Shown one piece after another: positions 990-44,165 of a DNA stretch of 64,000 nt. The notes beneath the pieces are model-generated. The model was not told the origin of the DNA. It searched no databases and saw only the letters and a list, made by a program, of their open reading frames with translations. This DNA is from a virus: positions 57,598 to 121,597 of IMG/VR virus record IMGVR_UViG_3300006108_000010, one strand, 5' to 3'. Within the stretch, counting starts at the first letter, position 1. Every line of letters starts with the position of its first letter. Made by a program: the position numbers and the translations under genes.

Positions 990-1017
990 ATTGTAGCAGA
1001 AAACCAAGAAATGTCTA
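990..1017 (-). promoter_or_regulatory. Possible sigma70-type promoter for the 249-aa gene
   Basis: On the minus strand TAGACA (1012-1017) and TACAAT (990-995) are separated by 16 bases. Each differs from the TTGACA/TATAAT consensus at one position. The predicted transcription start is about 2-3 bases before the ATG at 980. The element overlaps the divergent late-type box at 1016-1023. Confidence 0.45.
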
Positions 1018-1023
1018 TAAATA
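1016..1023 (+). promoter_or_regulatory. T4-type late promoter box TATAAATA
   Basis: An exact copy of the T4 late promoter consensus TATAAATA lies 7 bases before the ATG at 1031. With T4 geometry, transcription would start 1-2 bases before the ATG. Confidence 0.65.
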
Positions 1024-1339: not shown

Positions 1340-2119
1340 ATGGCACTTTCAGGAATAAGAATAACAGATTTACCAGAAGATACGAGTTTAATACAAACTG
1401 GTGATACTTTTATAAAAGTTAAAAATGTAGGAAACATACCGACATCATTTAAAGTTGATGGTAGTGTATTTCAAAATTCATTCCAAGGTATTACAGGTGT
1501 TAATAGTCTAGGTGGTGGATATCCTTTTTATAGTGGTGTAACTCCTGATAATAGTGGTCTTAATTTTAATACTCTTAAGGGGTCTAATGGTATTGATATT
1601 AATAAAAATTCACACGTTTTAACATTACAGGTTTCGGGAACCAATTTCGTTACTTCGTCAATGATACAACCAAATACTATTACGTCTTCTCAAATAGCGA
1701 ATAATAGTATTACAAATAACAGTATTGCCACAAATACTATTCAGTATTCCAATTTATTAAATAGTTCATCTTATCAAGGTGCACAGCAAAGACTTTCAAA
1801 GATATGGGTAAATTTCGATGGAACCAAAGCTGTTAATTACGATTCTACTAATAGTAATTCTCTATCGGGTGTCCGCTCATCTCATGGTGTTTTAGGGGTA
1901 GTAAGATTAAACAAACCAGGCGTGTATCAAATTAATTTCAATTTCACAATGAATGATGCTTATTATGCAGTTATTGGTAATGCTAATGATCCTTCGGGTA
2001 TAGCAACAGTAACAGTTAATGCACAACAACCAACATATTGCCAGATACAAGTTGATAGAACTTCGCCTCTTGAAACTTATGACGTATCAAACGTATCGGT
2101 TATAATTTTTGGGAATTAA
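1340..2119 (+). CDS. Tail-fibre-type protein with conserved C-terminal tip (259 aa)
   Basis: The N-terminus (SGIRITDLPEDTSLIQTGDTF) is the short attachment-like segment seen in many phage fibre proteins. A middle part rich in Asn/Ser/Thr follows, with a tandem SxxxNNSITNNSIATNTIQY stretch typical of a trimeric stalk. The C-terminal ~100 residues begin with IWVNFDGTK, a motif widespread in phage fibre tips, and end DVSNVSVIIFGN. This C-terminal domain is clearly paralogous to that of the next gene (NDPSGIxTxxVNxQ, RTxPLExYDxSN). A receptor-binding or fibre-tip role is inferred. The two genes are separated by 3 bases and are probably co-transcribed. Confidence 0.8.
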   Translation: MALSGIRITDLPEDTSLIQTGDTFIKVKNVGNIPTSFKVDGSVFQNSFQGITGVNSLGGGYPFYSGVTPDNSGLNFNTLKGSNGIDINKNSHVLTLQVSGTNFVTSSMIQPNTITSSQIANNSITNNSIATNTIQYSNLLNSSSYQGAQQRLSKIWVNFDGTKAVNYDSTNSNSLSGVRSSHGVLGVVRLNKPGVYQINFNFTMNDAYYAVIGNANDPSGIATVTVNAQQPTYCQIQVDRTSPLETYDVSNVSVIIFGN

Positions 2120-2122
2120 TTT

Positions 2123-3154
2123 ATGGCTAATTTACCGATAACAAGCTTACAATCGGATACCACACCTTTATCATCTACTGATTATTTTTTAAAAATTAAA
2201 AACGGTCTAGCGTGGAAAGTAAGCGGAAAAACTATTGTACAATCGGGATTAGGAAAAAAAACCAAAGTTAATAGTCTTGGTAACGGTATTAGTATTGTTC
2301 AAAGTATTGGTAATGTTTTTCAAGACACTGTATTATTTAATACCATTAGCGCATCAAATGGTATTTCAATTACTAATAATTCAAATTTAATAAATGTATC
2401 ATTTTCAAATGCTCCATTTTTAAATGGTAATATGTTTGTTGCAAACTCTTTATCAGATTTGCAAGTCGTTGATAATACTATTACTGGTTCTGATATCACA
2501 ACTAATACTCTTGAGTATGATAGCTTAAATAGCAACATTCAAATAGTAACCGCAAAGGCATGGGTTAATTTTAATGGCGCAGCGGTTGCATCAACCGTAA
2601 CTGGTGAAATTAAAGATAATATATCCGTAAACAATGGATCAAATGTTGGAACTTGGGCAACGGTTGCTGAATGGGATCAAACTGTATTAAATTGTATATA
2701 TTTTATATCTTCTGCTACATTGGGGTGGAAAAATCGTCCAGTAAGAATTGTTAGTTTTAATAACAAAAATACTGCGGTATTTAATATTTTAAATGGAAAT
2801 TATCAAAGTGGGTTTACTAATATTAATTCAACTATAAGCACAGCCGCTAAAGGTAATACTTTTTCGTATTATAGTGATGGTATAAGATCGTGTTATAATG
2901 TGGAATCTATTTTAAGAAATCCGCCAAATAAAACCTATTACAATTATCCTGAAGGATTTTATACAATTTATTTTGCAAATGCTATGGCTGATTCCAATTA
3001 CGCTGTCGCTGGTAATGGAAATGATCCTAGTGGTATAGGAACTTTTATGGTTAATTCTCAAACTACTAAATCTTGTAACGTAGAAGCTGCCAGAACCAAA
3101 CCACTTGAGTCGTATGATTTATCAAACATATCAATGGTTGTTTTTGGAAATTAA
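2123..3154 (+). CDS. Tail-fibre-type protein, paralogue of the preceding gene (343 aa)
   Basis: The N-terminus (NLPITSLQSDTTPLSSTDYF) matches the pattern of its upstream neighbour, and the C-terminus repeats the same tip (AWVNFNGAA, then NDPSGIGTFMVNSQ, RTKPLESYDLSN). It differs by an insertion of roughly 80 residues between AWVNFNG and the NYAVAGNGNDPSG part. The insertion contains a Trp-rich beta segment (VAEWDQT, TLGWKNRPVRIVSF), so the tip domain has been interrupted or expanded. No promoter box precedes it, and its ATG follows the previous stop by 3 bases. Together the pair look like alternative or heteromeric fibre tips. Function inferred. Confidence 0.8.
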   Translation: MANLPITSLQSDTTPLSSTDYFLKIKNGLAWKVSGKTIVQSGLGKKTKVNSLGNGISIVQSIGNVFQDTVLFNTISASNGISITNNSNLINVSFSNAPFLNGNMFVANSLSDLQVVDNTITGSDITTNTLEYDSLNSNIQIVTAKAWVNFNGAAVASTVTGEIKDNISVNNGSNVGTWATVAEWDQTVLNCIYFISSATLGWKNRPVRIVSFNNKNTAVFNILNGNYQSGFTNINSTISTAAKGNTFSYYSDGIRSCYNVESILRNPPNKTYYNYPEGFYTIYFANAMADSNYAVAGNGNDPSGIGTFMVNSQTTKSCNVEAARTKPLESYDLSNISMVVFGN

Positions 3155-3179: not shown

Positions 3180-6100
3180 ATGGCATCTACTTCAAACGTA
3201 TCTTTAAGTACTCAAACTCCATTGGCTTTTACCGATTGGATTAGATACCAGACCGCTGTTTCCCCTGAAACTGAACAAGAATCATATTTAAATTATGTTC
3301 ATGCTTGGTATGCATATCAAAATACGGTTCAAAATGTTACACAAGATGCTGTAAAGCAACAATATGTACAATTAGCCAAGGATTTAAGTTTTCTTTTTAG
3401 TAGTTCTGAAACAAGTGATCCATTCTTACAAAATATTGATTACAATGACCCTGAAAATTTAATTTATGCTATCCCTTTCTTTGCAAAGAAATTAAGACAG
3501 ATTGCAATTGTTTTACAAAACAAAAGAGAAAATGTTAAACGTGCAAAGTTAAAGTATAATTTAATCGGTTCTGAAGATGGATTGCAGAAACTTTTATACG
3601 AATATATTTTAAGAGGGTTTACCATTACTGAGAATTCTATTACTCAAGTTCCTGCATCACCATTAATAAATTATTTTCCCGATTTAACTGCTGTTAAAGA
3701 TAATTTTTATATTGAGCTTGAAGAATTACATGACACTAATTCTTATTTTGACTCTGATCCATCCGTTCCAATTGAGAATTATTTGAACATAACTCAATTA
3801 ACCGACACGTTTCCGTTATCATCATTTGATGATAACATGGTGAATCAGTTATTATCTACCAGATTTTTCCCAAGAGTTGCAGACACACCATTGTCTAATT
3901 TATTCAAAGCTTACACATTATCCCTCCCAACATTATCAACTTATGCTTTATCAGCTGCTCCGACTAATTTAATTTTTAATGAAATTAATATATCTGAAAA
4001 ATATCTTGGTGAACCTGTTTATGGTTTAACTGCCATACGTTTACAGGATATAAATAAACCAGATTTAGTTTTAAACTTGTCATTTACCAATGGTAATAAT
4101 TGGTTTTATTGGCCCAGCGGAAATAGGGTTGTAAACGATTCTATTTATAATGATTTTCTTCAGCCTATTTTAATTAATGATTCCAATTTAGTTGGTTCAG
4201 GGGCAACAGGGGGAACCAATTATAGAAATTCTGATTTAATTTTTACAGATAAAAACGGTGTGCTTGAGGGTGCTTGGTTGCAGGGTCCTCATAATCAAAC
4301 GGTAAAAGCCGATATGGTTGCTACTATTGATGGTGGCGCAACAAGAGAATTTATCTTTCCGTTTCCAGGTCTTTTACTAAATTCAAAATCACTAACATTT
4401 AATGATTTTTATATAAATGATACATACAGCAATAGTCAATTAGCAAATGTTGCGCCACAAATAAAAGTCGATGCATTAAATGCTTATTATTCAGCCGCTA
4501 CACCTTTAACAAGTTGTAATCCAATTTATTTAAATCAAACAAATATAATTGATACTACTAATGCTTCATCTGCTCAGTTTTCACCTGATGCAGATAATAT
4601 CGTAAAGAAATTCAAAATTTCAAATAATATTAATAATTACAGTGAGTTTAAATACGGAGGAATAGAACAGGCATATCTTTATAGATTTGAAAGAACTGAT
4701 ATCCCAATTCAAGCTGGGTCTACTACGATACATTGGCCCATCCACACGTTTGATGCCGCAAATGACAACAATCCTATAACAATAACAAGCAATTATTGTT
4801 TACCTATAACATTAGGTGATATAAATCCAATGTATGCAATGGTTGGTGCTGTTGCTGGAACTAATGTTAACAATGCTGATGTAATTTATAAGCTTAATAG
4901 TAAAACTGGCGATCCAATGGAAGCGGCTTGGCTCGGTTCCGGTGTAGTTTCTGGTTTAGATATAATAGCAAATTCAATTAATGTTTATGATTCGCCAGCT
5001 ACAAACTGTTCTTTACCCGTTGTAGGTAGCGTACAACCATCTTGTTCTTTTATAGCAAATGGCGGAGACAGAATTTCATTTATATGGTGTGATGCTGATA
5101 CACCAGCTGACAATGTATTTAAATATGTTGAGCATCTTCCAACGTGTCCTTATGGCAAATCAATGCCTAATGATTTATATTCTGACCAAGATTACCAGAA
5201 TCCAAATCCAATTAATATTAATGATACTTGGAGTAAATGTATTTGCCATTCCGTAAACTATTCACCTATTGGTAACTATGGTAATAGTGTTCTTGATTAT
5301 AATGGAATAGCTGATTATCTTTTTGCTGACCCACAGGGATTAGGCATAAATTTCAGTTTAAATAGCTGGACTGATACCAGAGGTTTTGATGCAAATAACA
5401 GTCCACAGTTTGCATTCTTCCAATTACAAAATGGAGATAGTCAGGTTGGATTCGGCGAAGGTACATGGAAAACTGGTAGTGGAGATCCATTTATATTAAA
5501 AACTGGCAGACGTTACACTTATTACAGAACATCTTTAAGAGCAGACTATACTAGTAACGCAACCCCGCCGTATTTTGTATCAAATTATCAATATCAGAAT
5601 ATTAAAGGATTATATCAAAGTCCTGAAAATTACGATGTAGTAATATTATTAGACGTTAGTAGATCTGAAAGTAATAATATTGAAAACATGAAATCGATTG
5701 TGATTTCTGTTATTGATAAAATACTAAACAATAATAATAATGTTGCTATAAATCCTAATTTTACACCACCAACAATACAAGTAAGTGTTGTAACCTTTGG
5801 AACAAATCAATCACGTTTAAGTTATCTTACAAATAACTATTCAAATTTAGAATTATTTGTAAGCCAAGGTGTTTATGTTTCTCATGACCCTTCACAATAT
5901 CAAACAAATATTGCGGGTGCATTATCGATTGCACAAACATTGTTAACAACACAACAAGGAAATACAAATACGTTCTCAACTAGTTCAACCAATACAATTG
6001 CATCGATATGTAATAATTTAAATTTTTATTTATATGAGGAAACATATGGTCAACCTACATATCTTAATAATCCGCAATATGTAACAAACCCAAATAATTC

Positions 6101-8624
6101 TAAATCAAAAATATTAATTTTTAGTGATGGGTTAGAAAACGTTTATTTAGATTCAAACTCAAACGAGTATTCGGTTCTTACGAATAATTTATCCAGCGCA
6201 AGTAATTTTGCTAATAATTTAATACAACAAGGAATAGAGATTTATGGAATTAATATTGGAGACTTATCAAGTTCAAATGATTTAATTAAACAAATTTCTA
6301 CTTCAAATGATTACTATTTTGATTTGGAAAGTTATTTGAAATCCGGTGACGGCAATACAGATAATTTCGCTGAATATATTTCTCAAAAACTAGGCTATTC
6401 TATATCTGTCAAACCGATGTGGTATAAAGCAATTAAAGATTCAACTGGTAATTGGAAATCTACTTATGAACTATCCGATATGGTTATCAGTGCTGGTGAT
6501 TTTATAATGTATAACCACAGAGGTTCAACAAGTTATACATGTCCAACAAATCCATATGCTAACTTTGCACAACCTTCAATTTCATTCATGATGAATGTTA
6601 AACTTGATGGATGGGATTACACAACCAATACATTTGATACAAATAATAAAGGCGACTCGTATGGCGGTAGACCTTTCTGGGCAAATGTTTATACTTCACC
6701 AGATGCTCTTAATAATTTTTATAAAGGTACAATGGCATTAGGTGGGCAGGTCAGATTCTTTAATGATTATGTTCCTTTCCATCAACCCGAAATATCATCA
6801 ATGGTATTAAATGCTGGTGACAATATTCAATACGTTAGAAATTCACCAGATCAAATTATATGGAATCAACCTTTAACCTTTAATGTATTGATTTCATCCT
6901 ATCAATGGAATCAATTAAATTTTAGTGAAAGTTATTCTAATTTAGCTGATTTCTTAAGAACTAATAAATTTGACGGTATTATTTATGATACCAATATTGC
7001 AAGTGAAATGACACTTGAGAGTTATTCTCAATTTAAACCTGCATATTACAATTATTACGCATTAAATTCATTTCAATATAATGAAGATCTTTATTATATA
7101 GATAGATGTTTAACTAGTTTTGTTACCTATAACACAGCTATTACGATTCAACCAGCAGAACCATATGCACATTTAGATAACGTTCATTATCCAACAGTTG
7201 CAACAGTTTCATTACCATCAAATGCAGTAACAGATAAACAAGTTGGTGAATATCTTTTACCTGAAAAATTAGGAACGTCTTTCTTCCGTGGAAGAGGTTA
7301 TACAATTGAGTTGGATAATAGTTCTTTAACATATATCGATTCAATAAGTGCCGAAAGAATGTTCTTGGATTTAGGAAAGTACGGACCTCGTCAGCGTGGT
7401 CTCACTAAAAAGGATCAAATAACACCAACAATGATAACTGATATATCCAATGGTTGGATATATGAACCTTATAGCTCTGCATCTAAGGCTGGTGTAATGA
7501 CTGATGTTTTAGAGAATCAAAAATTAACTCCTTATCAAACCAGTTACGAAATATACCAAAAAAATTATTATGGTTTAGCACGACAAAATGACGTAGTTGA
7601 ATTTTGGACACCAAATAAAAATGGAATTGAAATATGGAATGATACAACAAACTATCCATTAAATTTTATTAAAGAATTACCTCCTTCAGAATACACACAA
7701 AGAAAAGAAAAATTATTAACTAACATGGGTAATCTTAATAATTGGAGAACCGATGTTTTCGGTAATGATTATGGTATCTATAAACAATTTTCTCCAGTTG
7801 ATTTGGATGGTTTATACATGTGGTTCTCCGCTGATTATGGTGTAGTCAATACTGTTAATACAACCAATCCATTCCTTCCTGACACCTTTGCAACAAATTT
7901 AGGCGATACTGTTGCAAAATGGATTGATCGCAGCGGTAAAAATAACTATTTGGTAACAGATATAGGATCACCAGTTTTAAGCTCCTTTAATGGAATGCCA
8001 ACAGTAAACTTTGGTGTATCTAGTAACATGCATAACTTGTATAATCTTAATAATAGCGAAGTAACAATGTTTGTAGTTGGTGCGTATGCTAATGCTAATA
8101 ATTTATATTCGTTTGATAACTATCAAGTTATTGCAGCTTTTGGAACATATTTAAGCTCGGCAGATCTTAAATATGTGAGTGATGGTGCATTGGTATTCAG
8201 TCAAAAATATAACGATTTTAACTTTGTTTTTGGTAATACCCAAGGTGGATATAGTCCAACTTCTGCAATAAACATACCTTATATAGAATTAACAGATTAT
8301 TATGGATATTATAATAATACTTTCTATCCTCCGACAAGTAATTTATATCTATTTGAAACCGTGTTTAGCCAGCCTTATGCTGAAGTATACATAAACGGAA
8401 CTCTGTTTGCTGATAACAAAGGGACACTTGTTCCGTCAGATAGTGCAAATTACTTTGATGCGCCTTTAGCGTCAACGGGTGGTTTTTATATTGGTTCTTA
8501 CATTCAGAATGCTTTAACAACTAATTGTAGTATATCGGAAATTATATTCTACAATCGTGCATTAACAGATTCCGAAAGACAACAAATCGAAGAATATTTA
8601 AACAATAAATATTCTATATATTAA
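3180..8624 (+). CDS. Giant virion protein with VWA domain and C-terminal concanavalin-like domain (1814 aa)
   Basis: The first ~200 residues are helical and charged (AKKLRQIAIVLQNKRENVKR, then KLKYNLIGSEDGLQKLLYEY), resembling the N-terminal part of large structural proteins of T4-like phages. A beta-rich region follows. From about residue 817 to 1070 there is a von Willebrand A domain: YDVVILLDVSRS carries the complete DxSxS metal-site motif (D825, S827, S829), T909 in QTNIAGAL supplies the second loop, and D983 in IFSDGLEN the third. From about 1543 a lectin-like jelly roll follows (GLYMWFSADYG, KWIDRSGKNN, ending LTDSERQQIEEYLNNKYSIY). No signal peptide. A metal-dependent adhesive role is inferred. 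Its 3' end overlaps the convergent downstream gene by 11 bases. Confidence 0.85.
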   Translation: MASTSNVSLSTQTPLAFTDWIRYQTAVSPETEQESYLNYVHAWYAYQNTVQNVTQDAVKQQYVQLAKDLSFLFSSSETSDPFLQNIDYNDPENLIYAIPFFAKKLRQIAIVLQNKRENVKRAKLKYNLIGSEDGLQKLLYEYILRGFTITENSITQVPASPLINYFPDLTAVKDNFYIELEELHDTNSYFDSDPSVPIENYLNITQLTDTFPLSSFDDNMVNQLLSTRFFPRVADTPLSNLFKAYTLSLPTLSTYALSAAPTNLIFNEINISEKYLGEPVYGLTAIRLQDINKPDLVLNLSFTNGNNWFYWPSGNRVVNDSIYNDFLQPILINDSNLVGSGATGGTNYRNSDLIFTDKNGVLEGAWLQGPHNQTVKADMVATIDGGATREFIFPFPGLLLNSKSLTFNDFYINDTYSNSQLANVAPQIKVDALNAYYSAATPLTSCNPIYLNQTNIIDTTNASSAQFSPDADNIVKKFKISNNINNYSEFKYGGIEQAYLYRFERTDIPIQAGSTTIHWPIHTFDAANDNNPITITSNYCLPITLGDINPMYAMVGAVAGTNVNNADVIYKLNSKTGDPMEAAWLGSGVVSGLDIIANSINVYDSPATNCSLPVVGSVQPSCSFIANGGDRISFIWCDADTPADNVFKYVEHLPTCPYGKSMPNDLYSDQDYQNPNPININDTWSKCICHSVNYSPIGNYGNSVLDYNGIADYLFADPQGLGINFSLNSWTDTRGFDANNSPQFAFFQLQNGDSQVGFGEGTWKTGSGDPFILKTGRRYTYYRTSLRADYTSNATPPYFVSNYQYQNIKGLYQSPENYDVVILLDVSRSESNNIENMKSIVISVIDKILNNNNNVAINPNFTPPTIQVSVVTFGTNQSRLSYLTNNYSNLELFVSQGVYVSHDPSQYQTNIAGALSIAQTLLTTQQGNTNTFSTSSTNTIASICNNLNFYLYEETYGQPTYLNNPQYVTNPNNSKSKILIFSDGLENVYLDSNSNEYSVLTNNLSSASNFANNLIQQGIEIYGINIGDLSSSNDLIKQISTSNDYYFDLESYLKSGDGNTDNFAEYISQKLGYSISVKPMWYKAIKDSTGNWKSTYELSDMVISAGDFIMYNHRGSTSYTCPTNPYANFAQPSISFMMNVKLDGWDYTTNTFDTNNKGDSYGGRPFWANVYTSPDALNNFYKGTMALGGQVRFFNDYVPFHQPEISSMVLNAGDNIQYVRNSPDQIIWNQPLTFNVLISSYQWNQLNFSESYSNLADFLRTNKFDGIIYDTNIASEMTLESYSQFKPAYYNYYALNSFQYNEDLYYIDRCLTSFVTYNTAITIQPAEPYAHLDNVHYPTVATVSLPSNAVTDKQVGEYLLPEKLGTSFFRGRGYTIELDNSSLTYIDSISAERMFLDLGKYGPRQRGLTKKDQITPTMITDISNGWIYEPYSSASKAGVMTDVLENQKLTPYQTSYEIYQKNYYGLARQNDVVEFWTPNKNGIEIWNDTTNYPLNFIKELPPSEYTQRKEKLLTNMGNLNNWRTDVFGNDYGIYKQFSPVDLDGLYMWFSADYGVVNTVNTTNPFLPDTFATNLGDTVAKWIDRSGKNNYLVTDIGSPVLSSFNGMPTVNFGVSSNMHNLYNLNNSEVTMFVVGAYANANNLYSFDNYQVIAAFGTYLSSADLKYVSDGALVFSQKYNDFNFVFGNTQGGYSPTSAINIPYIELTDYYGYYNNTFYPPTSNLYLFETVFSQPYAEVYINGTLFADNKGTLVPSDSANYFDAPLASTGGFYIGSYIQNALTTNCSISEIIFYNRALTDSERQQIEEYLNNKYSIY

Positions 8625-9075
8625 CAAGAGACAATAAATAATTTGCTCTGTTAAATTTTGTTAAGATATCATCTCTGGTATTATTAATACCAGATTTTAC
8701 TGATGTTATGTAATTGTTAAACTCAAGAGAAGTGAGAATATTTTGAACTATCTCATTAGTTTTATTATACGTATTAACTATATCTTGAGCATTACCTTTG
8801 AATTGATCTATATTATTAATATCAATATTGGTGACAAACATTGGAAATTTTATGTTTTGAACTCTTGATGTGCCAATAATCTCCTCTTGTAAAGTGTCAA
8901 ATAACTCATCTAAATCTTCATATAATTTACCTAAAATTTTATGAACTTGGTAATCATTAGAGTACCAATGACACATATGAATTAATGTATTAATTTTTTT
9001 AAGAAAGATACCAAAATGGCGTGTTGGATCTACTGGGTCTTCTTGTGACTTTACTTGTATTATTTCTATTTCCAT
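8614..9075 (-). CDS. Helical protein resembling phage DUF5856/Dps-like family (153 aa)
   Basis: An all-helical small protein. The segment INTLIHMCHWYSNDYQVHKI followed by LGKLYEDLDELFDTLQEEI resembles the four-helix Dps/ferritin-like proteins (DUF5856 type) often found in large phages. In these, a His-Trp helix is followed by an acidic helix. Whether iron-binding residues are complete cannot be judged by eye. The ATG at 9075 is 3 bases after the stop of the upstream gene, so it is probably translated from the same message. The last 11 bases overlap the convergent VWA gene. Family assignment is from pattern memory only. Confidence 0.6.
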   Translation of the reverse strand: MEIEIIQVKSQEDPVDPTRHFGIFLKKINTLIHMCHWYSNDYQVHKILGKLYEDLDELFDTLQEEIIGTSRVQNIKFPMFVTNIDINNIDQFKGNAQDIVNTYNKTNEIVQNILTSLEFNNYITSVKSGINNTRDDILTKFNRANYLLSLVNI

Positions 9076-27099: not shown

Positions 27100-30000
27100 T
27101 TAGTATCTATATGTTTCGGTTGGTATATAATAAACGTCTTGTGAATCCCCAGTACCAAGTTGACCATAGTTATTCATACCACACATGTAGACTCTTCCTT
27201 CTTGAGTTATAATTTGTAGGAAAAGTTGATTTGCATAACCTACAAGTGATACTGATTGAGCATTTTGCTTTGGTAATTTAATTTGAGTAGGCGTTGATAA
27301 GTAATTTTCTTCAGAATCGCCACCTAAACCACCCCAACCGCTGTACCCGCAAGTGAATACTCTTCCGTCAGTTGTTGCCATAGCCCATGCACCATCAGCT
27401 ATTGCAATATCTTTTATTAAACCTGCCGACCATGACCAGTTTGGTACACTTGCAAAACCAGTTCTTGAGGTTTGATATACCGGAGAATGAACCGTTGTTG
27501 GTATGCTATGAGCACTGCCGTCAGTTGAGCCGATACCTAATTGACCCCAATCGTTTCTGCCCCAACTCCATAAGTTACCATATGAATCATATGCAAGGCA
27601 GAAAGCATAATCGCCTATTCTATTAAATGTCCAGAAATTAACTATATTACTGAGAGACGTAATTTTGGTTGCATAATTTCTATTTGTTGTATCAGCATGA
27701 CCACTAGTTCCTAATCCCAGTGCACCTATACCGTTATATCCAGTTGACCATAATGTACCATCGTTGCAAAGGAAATATGTTGCACCCGTTCCTGATACAC
27801 CACCTGTGCTACCATAAACTTTTTTAACGTTGCCAATTGGTGTTCCAACTCCACTTAAAACAGATCCAAATGTATAGAAATTAGTACCAGCACCTCTTCC
27901 GAGTTCTCCGTAGTTATTCCAACCACAGGATTGAACAGTTCCATCATTGAATAATACGAAAGAACTATTTGTATTACTTGAATCAGCAGTATTTAAAATC
28001 TGCTTTATTCCGCTAGTATTACTGAGAGTTATGTTTGTTGGCGTTGAATGTGCCGAACCATCAGCAGTTCCAATGCCTAATGAACCATAGCTGTTATTGC
28101 CCCATGTCCATAGTTTTCCATCTGCTGTAACTGCTAAACATGTTATATAAGAAGCTTGATCTACTGATTTATTTACTGAGAATTTAACAACTGCTCTTTG
28201 TTGATTGGTGCTTCCATCCGAACCACCAAAATAAATCTTATTCATTATGGTCTCATTTTCGGTTCCGCCGTTGCCTAAGTTTCCATAGTTGTTTATACCA
28301 CTCGCCCAAAGAACACCATTTGCATCCAATATGTATAATGATAATCCAGCTTGCCAGAATTCTACTGGTCTAGCAACTGGTGTTGCGGCATCAGTGGGAG
28401 TAATTGTAACTGGATTTACAATTGATAAATCGGCATAATATCCTGTTGGAATTGATCCATAATATGAACGACCTGATGAAAACAATCTTCCATCCCAGAA
28501 CATTACTGTAGATGCTTGTCCACCTCTTCCTTTTGAATTTGGTAAAGCAGAATAATCAGAAAATGCATAAGCTGTAGCACCTGCACCGTTTCCACCAGTA
28601 ATTGTTACATTAGGATGCTGAAGATAACCTTGACCTGCATTTGTTATGGTAATACCAATAACGTGACCGAAGGCATCTATATTTGCAACTGCTGTTGCTT
28701 GTATATTAACTTTACCATTCGTATTAGTGTCAGTTGGTGGGTCAATAGTTACAGTTGGCGCAACTGTATATCCTACACCTGTACTTCCTACAACTATATT
28801 TCTAACTTGACCATTAATAACTGCTCTACTTAAACTTGTTAAATCACCCAATACATTTAAACTCTTACCAATGATAATATTTTGTGTGTATAAATCACCA
28901 GTTGAACTCAAGTTATTAACATAGGTAAAGTTACTGGATAGTGCAGTAATATTAGAACCCAAAATAAACGTATTTGGTAAATTATTTGTATTGTTAGAAA
29001 CTCCGCCAGCAATAAAACTATAATTACCGGATGCAGTATTTTGCTGACCTCCTGTTATAACCGATCTATTTCCAGAAACGCAATTTAAACATCCTCCTGT
29101 TATATTAGAGTCATAACCTGTTATGCAGTTTTGTTCGCCACCTGAAATATTAGAAAATGAACCACTTGAACTTATGGAATTTAAACATCCGCCAGATATA
29201 TTAGATCCATATGCACCCGCACAATTTGAACCACCACCATTTACATTTGAAAAACTATTACTAGCCGTATTGCAACAACCACCACTTATATGTGTATAAT
29301 TTGCAGAAGCAGTATTGCGAACACCACCCGTTATTGATGAATTTGTGCCGCCTGATGAAATTGTATTATTTTTCCCACCAAAAATAGATGAGAAGTTTGC
29401 ACACGCACAATTTGAGCCGTAAACATATTGTAACGATGAAAGACTTGTACCCGTTGTAAAGAAACTGCCTGATGCTAAAACGCCAGTTAAGTTTGAACCG
29501 TTACCAATATAATTTCCATACACATAACCTTGTGAACTTAAATTATTTACATATGTAAAATGTGATCTTGTTGCTGTTATCGCAGTACCTAAAACATAGG
29601 TATTTGTCTGGTTATTAGTGTTGTTTGCTGATCCACCTGCAATAAATGAATAATTTCCAGATGCTGTATTGCAATTACCAGCAACAACTGTTGTTTGGCA
29701 TCCGCTAGCCGTGTTGCATTGACCAATAACAACACTTGAATGATTTCCACTTGCAACGTTGCAGAATCCACCCAATATATTTGAACAGGTTCCGCTTGAT
29801 GTATTATTATTACCACCTAAAATATTGGCATGATAACCAGAAGCTGTATTAAGATAACCACCTAAAATATTAGCATGTGTACAAATTGCACAAGAAGAAA
29901 ACCCAGCAACAACAGATGAAAATCCTACCGTTGCTTTGTTGCAATATCCAGCAGAAACGTTTGAGCAATCACCAGTTGCACAGTTACAATAACCACCGCC

Positions 30001-31293
30001 AACAATTGTATATTTTCCGGTTGCTTGATTGCAATAACCGTTGACAACAACACTATAGCAACCAGAAGATGTATTACATGCGCCACCTAACACACTTGAA
30101 TAATTTGCGGTTGATGAATTGTTGCATCCGCCTACAACAGCAGCATATTTTCCAGAACCGATTGAGTTATTATAACCTACAATTAAAGTACAACTTGCAC
30201 TTATTGCTCCGTTAACTGTGAAGTTTGTTGTGGGGAATGCAGTATTAACACCAACCCAACCATTTTGATTAACAGAAAGTGCCGTTAATGGCTGAATGTT
30301 ACCTTGAATATTTTGAATATAAAAAGTATCACTCTGTTTATCATAAATCATTTTAACTCCTGATTGAGGAGAAGTATTTGAAAGATTATATTCACCTATG
30401 AATATAGATGGATTTCTTCCATCGGGATGCATTTCAGATGTTAAATCTATAGAATTACAAGATAAAATCGGAACGAATACATTACCACTAGCACTTATCG
30501 ACCCCTGAACAGCAAGATGCCAATTTGGAGTGGTTGTTCCACCGATACCAACGTATCCTCCTGTTGCTAAACCGTCAACATAGAAAGCAGTTAATGGTTG
30601 ATTCGTGATTGGATTAGTAACCTGAGAAACTATTACTGGTTGAAATCCATCTTGGCGAGTAAAAAGCGTAGTTCTGGTTCCGTAGTTTATTAAATCTAAA
30701 CCGTTACTTGATAATTGTAATGTGGTGTGATCAACAATTGTTCCAGAAAGATTTAAATTTTTTGTTAACCATAAATTTCCGTCTATCCAAGCATCACCTT
30801 TAACTTGTAAAGGGTAATTAGGAGAGGTGTTATTGATACCAACATTACCGCCTTTAAAAATAGCAGCTGCGCCATTTAAAGGTGCTTGAATTTGTAAACC
30901 ACCACCTCCAGAAACCAGACCACTAATGGTTTGGCTTCCTTGTATTGTAGAATTTCCACTTAAACTGAGATTACCAGAAGCAGTAATATTATTTGCTATT
31001 ATATTATTAACAGTTAAGTTACCGTTTGTATATTGATTACCAGTTGCGCTAACATTACCTATAACAGTTAATTGCTGATTTGGGTTAGCAGTACCAATAC
31101 CAACATTTCCTCCAATAAATGCAGCTGCATAAGCACTTGTCGATGGAACAATTGCACTTAAACCACCTTGCAATACAAAATCACCATAAAATGGTGCTGT
31201 GAAACTAGCTATAGGATCATGAGATGAATCAGGATTAGTTGCGTGAGCATATGTATGGTGATTTTGTCTATGATATTTGGAATTGGGTCTCAT
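27100..31293 (-). CDS. Tail fibre with GGxxN repeats and C-terminal RCC1-type propeller (1397 aa)
   Basis: Residues about 50-370 contain GNVGIGTANPNQQLTVIGNV modules of the kind found in endosialidase-type fibres. Residues about 370-800 hold Cys-containing GGxxN repeats ending in the TFILGSNITALSSNFTYVNN linker. A GYTVAPTVTI/GYLQHPNVTITGGNGAGA beta segment follows (about 830-910). From about 930 to the end are RCC1 repeats: seven clear units with cores such as NNYGNLGNGG, NSYGSLGIGT, NNYGELGRG, NGIGALGLG, NDWGQLGIG, SGWGGLGG and NNYGQLGTG, probably a seven-bladed propeller. The propeller at the distal end suggests a receptor-binding tip. No strong promoter box is seen upstream. Confidence 0.87.
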   Translation of the reverse strand: MRPNSKYHRQNHHTYAHATNPDSSHDPIASFTAPFYGDFVLQGGLSAIVPSTSAYAAAFIGGNVGIGTANPNQQLTVIGNVSATGNQYTNGNLTVNNIIANNITASGNLSLSGNSTIQGSQTISGLVSGGGGLQIQAPLNGAAAIFKGGNVGINNTSPNYPLQVKGDAWIDGNLWLTKNLNLSGTIVDHTTLQLSSNGLDLINYGTRTTLFTRQDGFQPVIVSQVTNPITNQPLTAFYVDGLATGGYVGIGGTTTPNWHLAVQGSISASGNVFVPILSCNSIDLTSEMHPDGRNPSIFIGEYNLSNTSPQSGVKMIYDKQSDTFYIQNIQGNIQPLTALSVNQNGWVGVNTAFPTTNFTVNGAISASCTLIVGYNNSIGSGKYAAVVGGCNNSSTANYSSVLGGACNTSSGCYSVVVNGYCNQATGKYTIVGGGYCNCATGDCSNVSAGYCNKATVGFSSVVAGFSSCAICTHANILGGYLNTASGYHANILGGNNNTSSGTCSNILGGFCNVASGNHSSVVIGQCNTASGCQTTVVAGNCNTASGNYSFIAGGSANNTNNQTNTYVLGTAITATRSHFTYVNNLSSQGYVYGNYIGNGSNLTGVLASGSFFTTGTSLSSLQYVYGSNCACANFSSIFGGKNNTISSGGTNSSITGGVRNTASANYTHISGGCCNTASNSFSNVNGGGSNCAGAYGSNISGGCLNSISSSGSFSNISGGEQNCITGYDSNITGGCLNCVSGNRSVITGGQQNTASGNYSFIAGGVSNNTNNLPNTFILGSNITALSSNFTYVNNLSSTGDLYTQNIIIGKSLNVLGDLTSLSRAVINGQVRNIVVGSTGVGYTVAPTVTIDPPTDTNTNGKVNIQATAVANIDAFGHVIGITITNAGQGYLQHPNVTITGGNGAGATAYAFSDYSALPNSKGRGGQASTVMFWDGRLFSSGRSYYGSIPTGYYADLSIVNPVTITPTDAATPVARPVEFWQAGLSLYILDANGVLWASGINNYGNLGNGGTENETIMNKIYFGGSDGSTNQQRAVVKFSVNKSVDQASYITCLAVTADGKLWTWGNNSYGSLGIGTADGSAHSTPTNITLSNTSGIKQILNTADSSNTNSSFVLFNDGTVQSCGWNNYGELGRGAGTNFYTFGSVLSGVGTPIGNVKKVYGSTGGVSGTGATYFLCNDGTLWSTGYNGIGALGLGTSGHADTTNRNYATKITSLSNIVNFWTFNRIGDYAFCLAYDSYGNLWSWGRNDWGQLGIGSTDGSAHSIPTTVHSPVYQTSRTGFASVPNWSWSAGLIKDIAIADGAWAMATTDGRVFTCGYSGWGGLGGDSEENYLSTPTQIKLPKQNAQSVSLVGYANQLFLQIITQEGRVYMCGMNNYGQLGTGDSQDVYYIPTETYRY

Positions 31294-37449: not shown

Positions 37450-40400
37450 TTAAATTAAACCAAATCCTTTATAAAGTTGATAGGTGAAGATAAATTCAAT
37501 CATACCATTGTCGTTATTCCAGTTAAGATAGGAGTCGGGATACATGCCTGAAATTTGGTTTGTGAGTGCTAATAAATATTCATCTCTGTTGATGTTCATG
37601 AATTGATTATTCCAATCCACAGTATTTTCAACGAGTATCTCGTTAGCTGGTGCAACAAATTCATAAAATTCATATAATTGTGTCCAAGGATAAGGTGAAT
37701 ATGTTAACCCAATAAAATAAGCTAATTTATCTAAACTATAAGATGTTAATCCCATAGTTGTTAAGTTTGTAACAACATCATCGTTTAGGGGAAGTTGCCC
37801 TGTTGGAATTAAACGATAAGAATTCAAAGACTTGGCTTTCAATACGACAGGAATTCCTGCTGTTACCATATAAGTTTTTGTGTCTAATAAATCGCCTCTA
37901 TTAAAATTATTATACTGGCTTGGAGTCGCAAAATTAAAATTATCATTTAGAGTATTGCCAAATAATCTACTTTGATTTATACTTAAAAGATCAATTGAAC
38001 GTTGTATATCAACTGGATAATTTAAACGAAAATCATCTGTATTAAGATCAACAGATTCTGCTAGATCATAAAGATTATTAACATTACACGTATCTATATC
38101 TACTATATTTGAAGTATAATTTGCGGTTTTTTCGTATGATTTTACACCGAGATCATCATGTGATGACAACCCAAATATAGTTGAAAAGAAATTAAAAAGA
38201 TTTTCACTTTGATTTAGTTTATCTTGAAAAGAAACTGATTTCAGTTGACCAGACATGTCAAAGTTTTCATTGATCTTATAAAGATCATAATAATCTGGCG
38301 GATAAAAATTAATATAATTGGAAGAAGTTGAACCGACAATGTTTTTATACAATACACCATTTGAATCGGTTACGTATGAACCATTGTTTCTATTATAGAA
38401 ATATTTGCTTATCCATCTAAAGCCAGACCAATCTCCATTAGCTTGCGCTGATTTAGACCAATTATTATAATCAAAAATTGTTGCAGTATTGGCTGCACTT
38501 AAATATGGTGTAAATCCTTTTGGTTGTATATAAAAACGATCTATTATATTTGTACTATTTGCATCAATAATATATACAGCATTTTCATATGAATTAATCA
38601 CATAAATTCTATTTAAAAAATCACTACAGATTCCTTCTAATGCAGTATCATCAGAATTGATTTTGTTGTTAAACCATTGTGGTGTGTTATTTGAATATGT
38701 CGTGCTAGTTACAGGGAAAGTTATTGTAGCTCCTGTATTAGGGTTTATAGATCCTAAAAAGTGATAGCTATAAGTAAACCATACATTTTGATTAGTATCG
38801 ATGGTAAGATGATTGACGGAATTGAAAGGACCGAACGATGATATCACTGCACCTGTTGTTCCGTTTATATATTGTAAATAACCATTATTAATACCAGCTT
38901 GTGTTATTTCATCATTTAAAGAAACCCATAGATTATTATTTGTATCACAAACTATTTCATTTGGCGATTTATAATATGGAAATTGAATAGATGTTAATAT
39001 GGCTCCATAGGTATCATATTTAACTAACCAACCACTAAATGGATTGGAATATGTTACCCATACGTTATTGTTTAAATCTGTATCAATAAAAGTCGGTTGA
39101 ATGGGATAACTATCTTCTGTATCAACTTTTGTATAATTTGTTGGTAAAGTGCTTGGATCAACCCATTGATTAGATTGATCAATCCATGCTTGTAAAAAGT
39201 CTGGATTGCTTATCTGAGATGAATTAAATGTTACCGTTTGAATATAATTTCCAAGTTTATCAAATTTTAATATATATGGCGTATCAAAACAAGCAACCCA
39301 AACATTTTCATTCGAATCAACAGCAAGAGAAACCGGAGACAACTGATTAGGAATTAAAAAGTTTAATGCGGTTAAACTATATTGCAAGTTGTTAATAATA
39401 CTATTTAAATCGACTTCTATTAATATATTACCAACAGAATTAATTCTATATAATTTATTTAATTCAGTATCCGTTGCCCATGCATGATAACTTGGTAATG
39501 GCAAAGCAGCAATAGCATTGATTCCATGTATACCAGAAACCGCCATCACATCATTTTGAAATTCTGTATTGTATGTTTGTATTACTGGCATATTAAATGC
39601 ATTTGTATGCAAATAAACAGATGATAAATTTACAATATTTTGATATTGAGATGTAGTAAGCATTCCAGCATTTGGATTGGAAATCCATAAAATTGGATTT
39701 ATCGTTATTGCTGATGCAGGTAAAATCGGAAAAGATCCCGAAGCATCAATTTGTGAATCTATTGCACTTTGATTATTAACAAAAGATCCTTTATAGTATC
39801 CTGATGTTAAGAAGCCATTCGAATCTTTAAATTCAAATTCGGTTGGTGTCGGCGTATAATTAAAAGTTAAAATATCACCTGCTAAATCTTTTGCGCTTAA
39901 TTGAAATGGGATATTTACCGAACTAAACAATTCATAATAAGTTGTACCATCGGCTGGTATATAGTGTATAAACTCATTTGAGTTTGCAATAAGAGTTCCG
40001 TTACCATCTACGAGATAGTCAAATATATAATAAGAATTAACTTTAAGATTTACTAAAATTGGGTTATCTTGACCTATAAATCTAATTTTAGATATTGGTG
40101 ATATTCCATTTTGCGTTATGCTAATGTAATCGGGTTCTCTGAATGTAAAAATATGAGGAACAGAAACCGTTGCTAAACTATTTGAAAAGCTTGGTGTGTT
40201 ATTATCTGAATTATAAGAATCATTAAACGAACGTATTCCAGATGTTCTAAGTGTAGCAATTATTGTACTATATGGTTTATTATTTAAATATAAATCTGTA
40301 TTATAAAGATCATCAACAAAATAAAATTCTGCGTAACCCGAAACGCCAACAACATTAGCAGTGGGATTTAATTTTCCGGTGTCATCGATTGCAACTGGTG

Positions 40401-41154
40401 TATCTATTGTTTGAATTGAATCTATTTGATTACCATTTAAATCTAAAAATCTCCACTGCGGTCTTAGAAACGACCAATTGTTTTCGGGTTCTTGGTACTG
40501 ATAAGATTTCGAAAACTGAGCACCTAAATCTATATAATGAGGTTCTGTGCTAGATGAAGTTATTACTAACTTAAAGGGATAACGATTATAATGACCCGCA
40601 AAAGTTGGAGGAGGTAAGACTTCAAAATATATTGATTCATTTAAAAATAACTCTACATTTATAGGATGAGTTTCTTTGTAGAAATTACCTGCGCTATCGT
40701 ATACGGTTAATGTTACATTGTAATTGTTTGGTAATTTATATAAATGTGTTGGGTTTGGTTCTCTGCTACTTGAATAATCACCAAAATCCCAATAATAAGT
40801 ATTATATCCTAAAGTTGCTAATTGATTATCAGTTATAAATTGAAAATTCGTAGCATTAGCAAATCCATTAGGATAATTTGTATTAAATAAACTGACATTT
40901 ACGTTTGTTGATACGCTAGTAAGTGAATTAACATTACCATTAATAATATTATAAGCTGTTAAAGCAACCGTGTAATTATTTGGCGAAGTATAGATATGAT
41001 TTCCTGAAATCTGTGTAGTAGTTGTTCCGTCACCAAGATCCCAATAAAATTGATTATAATTTTGGGCAGTGTAACTATCAGGAACAAATGTAAAATCCGT
41101 AGTTAAAGTATAACCAAAATTAGGAGGATTTAAAATTATATATGAGCTTGCCAT
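37450..41154 (-). CDS. Large baseplate-region protein: two PKD domains, propeller, conserved C-terminus (1234 aa)
   Basis: Residues about 20-90 and 91-170 are tandem PKD domains (FYWDLGDGTTTT with HIYTSPNNYTVALTAY; YYWDFGDYSSS with HLYKLPNNYNVTLTVY). A propeller of NHL or streptogramin-lyase type spans about 555-880 (LAVDSNENVWVACFD, VCDTNNNLWVSLND, IDTNQNVWFTYS). The final ~250 residues (VVLKAKSLNSYRLIPTGQLP, then TQLYEFYEFVAP) look like a conserved baseplate-type domain. It directly follows gp6 (6-base gap), the position of gene 7 in T4, which also encodes a large wedge protein. A gp7-like role is inferred from this position. Confidence 0.8.
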   Translation of the reverse strand: MASSYIILNPPNFGYTLTTDFTFVPDSYTAQNYNQFYWDLGDGTTTTQISGNHIYTSPNNYTVALTAYNIINGNVNSLTSVSTNVNVSLFNTNYPNGFANATNFQFITDNQLATLGYNTYYWDFGDYSSSREPNPTHLYKLPNNYNVTLTVYDSAGNFYKETHPINVELFLNESIYFEVLPPPTFAGHYNRYPFKLVITSSSTEPHYIDLGAQFSKSYQYQEPENNWSFLRPQWRFLDLNGNQIDSIQTIDTPVAIDDTGKLNPTANVVGVSGYAEFYFVDDLYNTDLYLNNKPYSTIIATLRTSGIRSFNDSYNSDNNTPSFSNSLATVSVPHIFTFREPDYISITQNGISPISKIRFIGQDNPILVNLKVNSYYIFDYLVDGNGTLIANSNEFIHYIPADGTTYYELFSSVNIPFQLSAKDLAGDILTFNYTPTPTEFEFKDSNGFLTSGYYKGSFVNNQSAIDSQIDASGSFPILPASAITINPILWISNPNAGMLTTSQYQNIVNLSSVYLHTNAFNMPVIQTYNTEFQNDVMAVSGIHGINAIAALPLPSYHAWATDTELNKLYRINSVGNILIEVDLNSIINNLQYSLTALNFLIPNQLSPVSLAVDSNENVWVACFDTPYILKFDKLGNYIQTVTFNSSQISNPDFLQAWIDQSNQWVDPSTLPTNYTKVDTEDSYPIQPTFIDTDLNNNVWVTYSNPFSGWLVKYDTYGAILTSIQFPYYKSPNEIVCDTNNNLWVSLNDEITQAGINNGYLQYINGTTGAVISSFGPFNSVNHLTIDTNQNVWFTYSYHFLGSINPNTGATITFPVTSTTYSNNTPQWFNNKINSDDTALEGICSDFLNRIYVINSYENAVYIIDANSTNIIDRFYIQPKGFTPYLSAANTATIFDYNNWSKSAQANGDWSGFRWISKYFYNRNNGSYVTDSNGVLYKNIVGSTSSNYINFYPPDYYDLYKINENFDMSGQLKSVSFQDKLNQSENLFNFFSTIFGLSSHDDLGVKSYEKTANYTSNIVDIDTCNVNNLYDLAESVDLNTDDFRLNYPVDIQRSIDLLSINQSRLFGNTLNDNFNFATPSQYNNFNRGDLLDTKTYMVTAGIPVVLKAKSLNSYRLIPTGQLPLNDDVVTNLTTMGLTSYSLDKLAYFIGLTYSPYPWTQLYEFYEFVAPANEILVENTVDWNNQFMNINRDEYLLALTNQISGMYPDSYLNWNNDNGMIEFIFTYQLYKGFGLI

Positions 41155-41160
41155 AATCTA

Positions 41161-42960
41161 TTAAAAATCAGCCGCTTTAATGGAACCAGTTGTCTCTTGT
41201 ATGGTAATTCTAGATGCTATATTTGAAACATTGTTAAATATAGGATATTGGAAATATTTTAAATTTACATTTTGCGTATAAACCTCTGAATAATTTTCAG
41301 GGTACACATAATCCCAAAAAAGTAAAGATACACCTTCTACATACGTATCTATATCAGAACGATACGTTTGCACTCTTTGAACACCATCAACATTTAATAT
41401 ACTTGTTGATAATTGATAGATGTCAATTATTTGACCTAGTTTATTGGTATTTCTATTAAATGCTTTGTTGAAAATATTTTGAACATCATTTAAAATTGCA
41501 GTATCTGCTCGTCTCGTGTTTGGATTTTTTGTTATGATTAATTTAGAATTACCAAGATCATTTGGAGAGGGTTTTACATATGGACTTGGTAAATAAAAAT
41601 CAATATATATGTAAACAGGGTCCATTGGAACAATTTCCGATGTAATCGTTTTATATGGAGCAATACCATTTATTATCATTTCCTTTTGAGTGGAATTTAA
41701 ATAGTTTTGAAGCGGACTGCTTGGGACAACATAGAGATATAGATTATTGAAATTACAAGCATTTGCAAAGTTGACTTGGTTAATTAAAATTCTATTTTCT
41801 AATTGAGGTGCATTTAATCCTATATCATAAAGATATGCAATATGACCAGATAGGTAATCATCATTACCAACCAATTGTATATCGGATAATAAATTGGAAT
41901 AGTTTTGATTTATATATGTTATATAATCCTTTGTAGTAACTAATCTGTATTGCGATCTAAATGCATTCGGTGCGTTATTACGAATAGAATCAACAGATTC
42001 CTCGATTGTATAAACTGTTGATGGATATTGATTGTTTAAAGATACCTGACTTAATTGATTAATTGTTAAATAATTTTGATTAACTGATACGTCCTTGATG
42101 ATTTGATTGAATGTTACAGAATTGTAAGGAACCAAAGGTGAATTATTCAATCCGTTAGGCCCAATACCCTGAGAGTTTTGATCAATTTGTAAATAATAAA
42201 TTTGAACTTGATCTCCGGTGCTCAATGCTTTACCGTTAACATTATCACCAAACTTTATTTCGTAATTTTTATTTTGATTGAATCTTACTTCGTAAACTGT
42301 ATCATTAGCATTATATAAAAATAAATCAGTTGCTCTTGTCCATTCTTGCCATACGCCAGTTGCAATTGGTTTAACAAATACAAAAATATTAAAGTGATCA
42401 ATATATACATTAGGTGGTAACGTAACGAAAGAAATTTCATTATCGATACCTAAAGCAGTATAAAGCGGATACTCTTGAAATATTCCTTGGTATGCCAAAT
42501 AGGTGTCTGCTATGTTTGAAATAACTTCTTGATATGGTGTAAATTTTGTAAAATTTATATCCTGATTAACTGAATATATTGTACCACCAACGTTTAAATA
42601 GCTATATCTTGGAATAGTGTAATTCCCAGCAACAACCGCTGGTGAAACTGTCATAGTAAAAGGAACATTTGCTCCTAATCTTCCAACAGGATTATAATTT
42701 AAAAGCTTTACAATACGATTCATGTTCTCGTAAAGTTGAGCTTCTGTAAACATACTCTCGGAGGATGTTTTATTAAGATAGTATAAAAGAGTACTAAAAG
42801 AATAACCAATAACGTCTATTAAAGCTGATAAATTTGACCCCTGATAATTTTGATCAGTAAAAATTTGTCCTTGGTTTAATTTACTGATAATTAAATCACG
42901 GATGCTTGTACCATCAAAGGCAACATATGAACTTTGGTCGAAAACAGGATTGGTAGCCAT
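41161..42960 (-). CDS. gp6: Baseplate wedge protein gp6-like (599 aa)
   Basis: The length is close to T4 gp6 (660 aa). The N-terminal part (DLIISKLNQGQIFTDQNYQG, then LSALIDVIGYSFSTLLYYLN) has the helical pattern of the gp6/baseplate-J family. A central beta domain follows (VYEVRFNQNKNYEIKFGDNV, NGKALSTGDQVQIYYL), where FGD-NGK-L-xGD is the hallmark of this family. In T4 gp6 dimers tie the wedges into the inner baseplate ring. The downstream position relative to gp25 matches T4-like order, which strengthens the call. Confidence 0.87.
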   Translation of the reverse strand: MATNPVFDQSSYVAFDGTSIRDLIISKLNQGQIFTDQNYQGSNLSALIDVIGYSFSTLLYYLNKTSSESMFTEAQLYENMNRIVKLLNYNPVGRLGANVPFTMTVSPAVVAGNYTIPRYSYLNVGGTIYSVNQDINFTKFTPYQEVISNIADTYLAYQGIFQEYPLYTALGIDNEISFVTLPPNVYIDHFNIFVFVKPIATGVWQEWTRATDLFLYNANDTVYEVRFNQNKNYEIKFGDNVNGKALSTGDQVQIYYLQIDQNSQGIGPNGLNNSPLVPYNSVTFNQIIKDVSVNQNYLTINQLSQVSLNNQYPSTVYTIEESVDSIRNNAPNAFRSQYRLVTTKDYITYINQNYSNLLSDIQLVGNDDYLSGHIAYLYDIGLNAPQLENRILINQVNFANACNFNNLYLYVVPSSPLQNYLNSTQKEMIINGIAPYKTITSEIVPMDPVYIYIDFYLPSPYVKPSPNDLGNSKLIITKNPNTRRADTAILNDVQNIFNKAFNRNTNKLGQIIDIYQLSTSILNVDGVQRVQTYRSDIDTYVEGVSLLFWDYVYPENYSEVYTQNVNLKYFQYPIFNNVSNIASRITIQETTGSIKAADF

Positions 42961-42973: not shown

Positions 42974-43552
42974 TTATATTAAGATTTGTCCTCCTAATTG
43001 TGCAAAAACGTTTAACGTGTCCTGAACACTTATTGGTAAAATCTCATAAATCAAAGATACGGCATAGCCCGGACCTAATGTATTTAAATCTGAAACAGTT
43101 TGTAATGTTAACTGTGTTCCATTTAAATTTATAACTGGTGTCGATTGCGGATTAGGTTGAACATAGACATTAATAACATTAACTCTTGGCTCGTATTGAG
43201 ATATGGCGTTATTGATATCATTACCTATGGCATTTGCACCTAAAATCGAAACGGGTTCAAATAGGTACTTTAATAATGAGCAACCAAATGTTGGATTTAA
43301 GACCTTTTGACCTGGTAAGGTGTTGAAAATATTATATAAAGAATTTCTAATTGCTTGGATATCAACGTCTGCTTCAATATCTCTTGACTCGACGCTACCG
43401 TTATCACCCAATCCAACTGATTGACCTATCGTTAGATCTAAATGTAAATCACTATAAATGGGTGTTGTAACCTGAACCTGCTTGTTCACTGCTACTCCAG
43501 TAGAATTAACCTGTTTGGGTTGAATTAAATTATTTAAGTCGATTATTGCCAT
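42974..43552 (-). CDS. gp25: Baseplate wedge protein gp25 (lysozyme-fold family, non-catalytic)
   Basis: The 192-residue protein carries the gp25 family signature: AIRNSLYNIFNTLPGQKVLN, PTFGCSLLKYLFEP, and the EPR motif at residues 121-123 (QYEPRVNV). In contractile tails gp25 forms the core bundle of the wedge with gp6 and gp7 and is the site where the sheath attaches. A longer frame begins with TTG at 43597, but it would run into the divergent neighbour's start. The ATG at 43552 (MAIIDLNNLI) is preferred. No clear promoter box was found in the 31-base divergent gap for this strand. The T4 protein is 132 aa; the extra length is N-terminal. Confidence 0.9.
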   Translation of the reverse strand: MAIIDLNNLIQPKQVNSTGVAVNKQVQVTTPIYSDLHLDLTIGQSVGLGDNGSVESRDIEADVDIQAIRNSLYNIFNTLPGQKVLNPTFGCSLLKYLFEPVSILGANAIGNDINNAISQYEPRVNVINVYVQPNPQSTPVINLNGTQLTLQTVSDLNTLGPGYAVSLIYEILPISVQDTLNVFAQLGGQILI

Positions 43553-43570
43553 GAAAAGGGTAAATAGTTG

Positions 43571-43580
43571 TATAAATATA
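43571..43580 (+). promoter_or_regulatory. T4-type late promoter box TATAAATA
   Basis: TATAAATATA lies just before the plus-strand ATG at 43584. The exact T4 late box ends 5 bases from the ATG. Confidence 0.65.
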
Positions 43581-43583
43581 CTT

Positions 43584-44165
43584 ATGGCAAAGTTCAATAA
43601 ATTTGATACACTTTTAGAAACGGCATTCTCCCACTATTCAAATGGCGGATTCAGAGAAGGTACACAGGTAAGACTTAAACCTGAATTCTTTAAATCTGCT
43701 TATTTCAAAAAGCATTACAGCGGTGATGAAGTATTTGTTAATTGGTTAACCGATTTAGCAGAAAGAAAGTATTTCTTTTTCGTTAAAAGAGTAGTTGGTC
43801 ATGCTGCTTTGCAGAATCCAAAAGATTCAAATGATAATGAAGGCGCAGGGGAAACTTTCCTTGTTTTAAAACTCGACCCTAGAACAGTTAATGCGCCAAC
43901 GGAATTTGGTGAATTCACCGTGCCAGGTGATTTTACCCTTGTAGAAGTATTAAACTTTGGTGGCAACTTACCACCTGTCCAAGCTGTTCCTAATAGATAT
44001 GAATTGCCAATGGGCTACCAGAAGCCACAGCCTGTTCAAATTGATATTACTATCAATAATCAACCAACTGATAAGGATTTGCCAGAAGATAACACAGCAA
44101 TCCCTGCATCACCTGCACAGGCTGCTAAGTTCGATAAGCCAAAGAAGCTTAAATTAAGAAAGTAA
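43584..44165 (+). CDS. Conserved-looking phage protein of unknown function (193 aa)
   Basis: The protein begins MAKFNKFDTLLETAFSHYSN and continues GGFREGTQVRLKPEFFKSAY. The combination of an N-terminal helix with a GGFxxGxxVRLK segment is like hypothetical proteins of T4-like environmental phages. The C-terminal ~40 residues are low complexity and end in a basic tail (KFDKPKKLKLRK). The ATG at 43584 is preferred over one at 43551 because the TATAAATA box lies between them. The last 12 bases overlap the convergent gp44 gene. Role unknown; the late box suggests a virion or assembly protein. Confidence 0.7.
   Translation: MAKFNKFDTLLETAFSHYSNGGFREGTQVRLKPEFFKSAYFKKHYSGDEVFVNWLTDLAERKYFFFVKRVVGHAALQNPKDSNDNEGAGETFLVLKLDPRTVNAPTEFGEFTVPGDFTLVEVLNFGGNLPPVQAVPNRYELPMGYQKPQPVQIDITINNQPTDKDLPEDNTAIPASPAQAAKFDKPKKLKLRK

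Follow-up and report, generated by a model that had tools for sequence, protein, structure and literature searches.

We predict that a VWA domain with a complete metal-dependent adhesion site (MIDAS) is inserted into the conserved core of a 1814-residue phage protein. The reading we prefer, to which we give about an even chance, is that this protein is a baseplate-associated adhesin in which a metal-dependent protein-binding VWA domain stands beside a glycan-type tip. This reading is based on the fold, the intact and conserved motif, the nested insertion, the swapped C-terminus, and the baseplate-operon gene order in relatives; the protein would reside in the virion, bind metal, and have a host protein as its ligand. 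The gene lies in a window of 64,000 nucleotides (the whole stretch that was analysed), which belongs to a virus record of 121.6 kb. The gene and its parts are as follows.

3180 to 8624, plus strand: gene for the 1814-residue, probably baseplate-associated adhesin-like protein (open reading frame; 41 non-redundant relatives in viral contigs)
3180 to 5597, plus strand: conserved core ahead of the insertion, residues 1-806 (43-52% mean pairwise identity among VWA-bearing members)
5613 to 6413, plus strand: predicted inserted VWA domain, residues 812-1078 (Pfam, AlphaFold2, Foldseek; missing from eight relatives)
5652 to 5666, plus strand: MIDAS motif DVSRS with D825, S827 and S829 (motif position and conservation)
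5904 to 5906, plus strand: MIDAS residue T909 (invariant, 34/34)
6126 to 6128, plus strand: MIDAS residue D983 (D in 32/34, N in 2/34)
6414 to 7766, plus strand: conserved core past the insertion, residues 1079-1529 (about 45-48% mean pairwise identity)
7767 to 8621, plus strand: C-terminal ConA-like lectin domain (common only to a six-member clade)

The open reading frame at 3180-8624 on the plus strand indeed encodes 1814 residues. The region 5625-6420, singled out by a previous sequence-only reading as a VWA domain, corresponds to residues 816-1080 of this protein. All five candidate metal ligands, D825, S827, S829, T909 and D983, were found where that reading had placed them. The domain is recovered by profile search in residues 819-928, where Pfam VWA (PF00092) matches with E=2.6e-7 (31.5 bits, cut-off 23.8) and VWA_2 with E=5.9e-7, also above its cut-off.

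The structure of residues 620-1814 was predicted with AlphaFold2 from an alignment of 26 sequences. In the VWA block pLDDT is mostly 67-88; it falls to a low 36-53 within the insert around 930-959 and within the loops close to 850-859 and 990-999. The domain consists of strands 817-825, 866-873, 974-982 and 1020-1025 and of helices 834-853, 887-897, 911-923, 1002-1016 and 1060-1072, the last helix. D825 is the final residue of strand 817-825, T909 is in the loop just ahead of helix 911-923, and D983 directly follows strand 974-982. In the model the five residues thus have the canonical MIDAS layout in a Rossmann-type VWA core. The best Foldseek matches in PDB were the VWA domains of TEM8 and CMG2 (E 3e-9 to 2e-8, target-normalised TM-score up to 0.76), and Mfa5, TRAP, collagen VI and integrin I domains were also significant. 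The same families are recovered by the VWA sequence profile. Since the AlphaFold2 model and Foldseek agree on a Rossmann-like core, the objection that such a core might be lacking, raised in the sequence-only reading itself, fails. The model of residues 1-720 was poor (pLDDT 47) and was left out of the fold search; residues 1-806 have a helical start. The profile of members without the VWA domain had no match in PDB to any solved structure for the core.

The family collected in IMG/VR scans consists of 42 non-redundant proteins, including that of the window, and 34 of them carry the VWA domain. In the profile scan VWA_2 was matched by 22 of 24 members. The domain is a conserved trait of this phage protein family and not a peculiarity of the window phage. 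The domain boundaries in relatives were derived from the alignment. D825, S827 and T909 are each invariant in the 34 VWA-bearing members, position 829 is occupied by S in 28 and by T in six, and position 983 by D in 32 and by N in two (L008, L030). A chance origin of the motif was rejected, because the metal-site positions are conserved across these 34 proteins; the finding of three MIDAS positions among 12 invariant columns has P about 7e-4 by a simple hypergeometric estimate. The insert between helix 911-923 and strand 974-982 contains another invariant residue, C944 (window 6009-6011, 34/34), together with nearly invariant N963 and P965.

Mean pairwise identity of the VWA domain in the 34 members is 33%, versus 43-52% in five other core regions, and it is the least conserved core region in 97.7% of pairs of VWA-bearing members. 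Fixed ligands in a fast-changing domain are what one would expect if it presents an adhesion surface around a constant metal centre. The position in a loop and the rapid divergence beyond the ligands would also fit a purely structural domain, a spacer or a stabiliser at the side, whose metal site serves folding only and has no partner. We consider such a spacer unlikely, as the complete five-residue MIDAS leaves a coordination position free for a ligand, and it is retained in nearly all family members. The free ligand position is established in integrin and CMG2 VWA domains, and purely structural VWA domains often lose the MIDAS.

The VWA domain is absent from eight relatives, L004 and L079-L085. 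In all of them the strand before the site runs directly into the strand after it, for example VPELIIKQQYTNTPSARWMKAIINSNGNW in L079. Since these relatives are continuous through the site, the VWA domain is a nested insertion in a loop of the conserved core. In this one respect it resembles the integrin alpha-I domain, a VWA domain that also sits within a loop of a different domain. The domain is also dispensable, as the eight relatives do without it and have continuous flanks.

In two related members, L022 (L022:8395-10044) and, in the matching region, L074, about 300 extra residues follow the SDG loop of the MIDAS; in L022 this stretch is charged and coiled-coil-like. Since so many residues are tolerated beside the MIDAS loop, this face of the domain is exposed there.

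On the core tree, the presence or absence of the VWA domain makes a single split with SH-aLRT 100, which on this unrooted tree means one gain or one loss. Throughout its clade, every member has inherited the domain along with the core, whatever the tip. This counts against the adhesin reading, as a host-range module would be expected to be swapped fast; so do N983 in L008 and L030 and the lack of the cysteine pair (see below) in the window protein. A possible, if somewhat doubtful, alternative is that the domain is a dock within the virion, its MIDAS binding an acidic residue on the baseplate or fibre protein next to it. The metal would then aid assembly or hold fibres, and host recognition would be left to the C-terminal tip and to separate fibres alone. 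This is the strongest rival, because domain and core have passed together down one branch irrespective of the tip. VWA domains often bind proteins of their own complex. Such binding, as in the AAA-VWA pairs of phages and archaea (PMC7911831), is a further point in favour of the dock. However, a dock for a co-inherited partner should be conserved as well as the core or better, whereas conservation of the domain outside the ligands is low; two members have the large insertion beside the MIDAS loop, and eight relatives manage without the domain. Taken together, the fixed ligands, the tolerance of about 300 residues and the absence from eight relatives favour an exposed, outward-facing role, whatever the ligand.

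Cysteines just before and just after the VWA domain occur together in 20 of the 34 VWA-bearing members; 13, among them the window protein, have neither, and one (L002) has only the first. The two positions are coupled with Fisher P 1.5e-8, relatedness ignored. On the tree each label undergoes about six changes; supported branches require at least four of these, and only in L002 do the labels disagree. This pattern suggests a candidate disulfide closing both ends of the domain in the members with the pair; such a closure would suit a surface module.

The final 285 residues are ConA-like in the six-member clade of the window protein. Pfam Laminin_G_3 matches here with E=0.02, below the cut-off, and Foldseek finds viral proteins named concanavalin A-like lectin; the lectin-like C-terminal domain proposed earlier is thus backed weakly by the first and also by the second. 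The tip is LamG in L011 and legume lectin in L020 and L025, and it is nearly missing in several members. In the closest relative, L006, a glycine-rich domain (Gly_rich_2, E 2e-14; L006:10510-12111) is nested inside the C-terminal lectin. By these matches, the C-terminus is a swapped, mostly lectin-like putative tip. The protein thus combines a conserved core with an exchanged C-terminal binding tip, the usual pattern of phage receptor-binding proteins.

The window contains T4-type genes for portal, head maturation protease, scaffold, major capsid, and gp25-type and gp6-type wedge proteins. Among the best matches listed, cyanophage capsid proteins share no more than about 34% identity with that of the window. 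The following features bear on the location of the protein.

1016 to 1023, plus strand: late-promoter-like TATAAATA where the gene run begins (motif count and locus comparison)
1340 to 2119, plus strand: first of two fibre-like genes that precede the family gene (match to phrog_11355 tail fiber protein, E=0.0027)
2123 to 3154, plus strand: second of two fibre-like genes that precede the family gene (match to phrog_11355 tail fiber protein, E=4e-4)
37450 to 41154, minus strand: gene for a 1234-residue protein with PKD and an NHL-type propeller, homologue of gene X, just downstream of the gp6-type gene
41161 to 42960, minus strand: gp6-type baseplate wedge gene (phrog_219; gene order in relatives)
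42974 to 43597, minus strand: gp25-type baseplate wedge gene (phrog_261 and phrog_43; gene order in relatives)

In five relatives without the VWA domain (L004, L079, L080, L084, L085) the gene order is gp25, gp6, X and the family gene, where X encodes PKD domains and an NHL-type propeller. L082 has the same order with one extra ORF ahead of the family gene; L081 has gp6, X and the family gene. The VWA-bearing L011 has gp6, X, a 254-residue ORF and the family gene. The position of X suggests a gp7-like role, and the order of gp25 and gp6 in relatives indicates that the family protein is likely to be at the baseplate. The window's own family gene is separate from gp25 and gp6 and directly follows the two fibre-like genes, in agreement with the fibre neighbours noted before. 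The protein was not classed as a T4 wedge member, since neither profile A6 nor profile A8 has a match among the T4 baseplate chains. Gene order varies between lineages, as in L069-L072 the homologue of the portal gene (window 52549-54411, minus strand) directly follows the family gene. A small gene at 8614-9075 on the minus strand, with matches to DUF5856 and to a family of phage proteins named 'starvation-inducible transcriptional regulator', is kept beside the family gene in many relatives. Further away, at 27100-31293 on the minus strand, a 1397-residue protein matches phage families that carry the annotation regulator of chromosome condensation (RCC1-like repeats) and has a weak head-closure match.

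The late control ascribed to the gene is supported in part. WATAAATA marks the beginning of the gene run in seven of 37 loci, that of the window included, versus 0.78 expected. However, the window shows no enrichment of TATAAATA (13 occurrences versus 18.5 expected).

Several published VWA proteins of phages and archaeal viruses are intracellular (PMC7911831, PMC8651126), and one may ask whether the family protein is likewise a non-virion factor, similar to the VWA partners of AAA ATPases. The order of gp25 and gp6, the lectin-type tips and the fibre-like upstream genes make this very improbable, and among the neighbouring window genes scanned no AAA partner was observed except the clamp loader.

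According to the adhesin reading, the protein would be a large structural adhesin on the baseplate of a T4-like myovirus lineage without a detected cultured match. The VWA domain with its complete MIDAS would sit in a core loop, probably displayed outward. D825, S827, S829, T909 and D983 would hold a metal ion whose coordination is completed by an acidic residue that a partner protein contributes; this partner would most likely be exposed on the host. Glycan would be bound separately, by the lectin-type tip at the C-terminus. The earlier proposal of a protein-receptor module acting beside a glycan-binding one agrees with the fold, the metal site, the lectin-like C-terminus and the fibre neighbours, and the host receptor in it is plausible; much of the evidence also fits docking to another virion protein. 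We also considered, as a quite improbable extension, a switch of the integrin I type, in which a host protein bound at the MIDAS would shift the last helix 1060-1072, signal engagement to the baseplate and help to trigger contraction. In the model this helix leads straight into a conserved core strand at about 1080.

No match was found by tblastn in cultured phages for the window protein, two relatives, or the VWA domain alone, and none in plasmids for the first 109 residues of the domain. The bacterial genome contigs searched contained no relative, and thus no host was assigned.

Known phage receptor-binding parts mostly have beta-rich folds. An integrin-type metal-dependent adhesion domain in a T4-like baseplate, if confirmed, would mean a distinct recognition chemistry. 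Adsorption would then be predicted to depend on Mg or Ca, the metal-site residues offer clear point mutants, and the homologues with and without the VWA domain form a natural comparison set.

Among known systems, the intracellular VWA proteins of phages and archaeal viruses resemble the window protein in having a VWA domain with MIDAS in a viral genome, but they are partners of CobT or AAA ATPases and are encoded outside structural modules (PMC7911831, PMC8651126). The remaining published viral VWA proteins that we found are intracellular or are not placed in the virion tail. CMG2, TEM8 and the integrin alpha-I domain share the fold and the MIDAS layout. They are animal receptors with low identity to the window VWA domain (about 15%), and they lack its extra insert with C944 between helix 911-923 and strand 974-982. 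Mfa5 of Porphyromonas gingivalis, significant by both profile and fold, is a bacterial surface adhesin with a VWA domain; it is a pilus-tip protein, with another host protein around the domain. Tail fibres of extracellular contractile injection systems carry VWA domains interpreted as target-binding, again in a component of a contractile tail (PMC12923769). Those particles deliver toxins, and their VWA domains are in fibres, not inserted in the core of a gp25-gp6-type operon protein (PMC12923769). In the open-licence papers we found no discussion of a MIDAS in a phage tail protein. A phage baseplate or fibre protein with a central VWA domain has been known since 2007, namely gp164 of the Bacillus thuringiensis phage 0305phi8-36, encoded among baseplate and fibre genes; the MIDAS goes unmentioned in that paper (PMC2147016). 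0305phi8-36 belongs to another lineage with a Bacillus host and was compared by its published description only (PMC2147016). Like the window protein, gp164 is a large protein of the baseplate and fibre region of a myovirus, whose central VWA domain is swapped or missing in relatives (PMC2147016).
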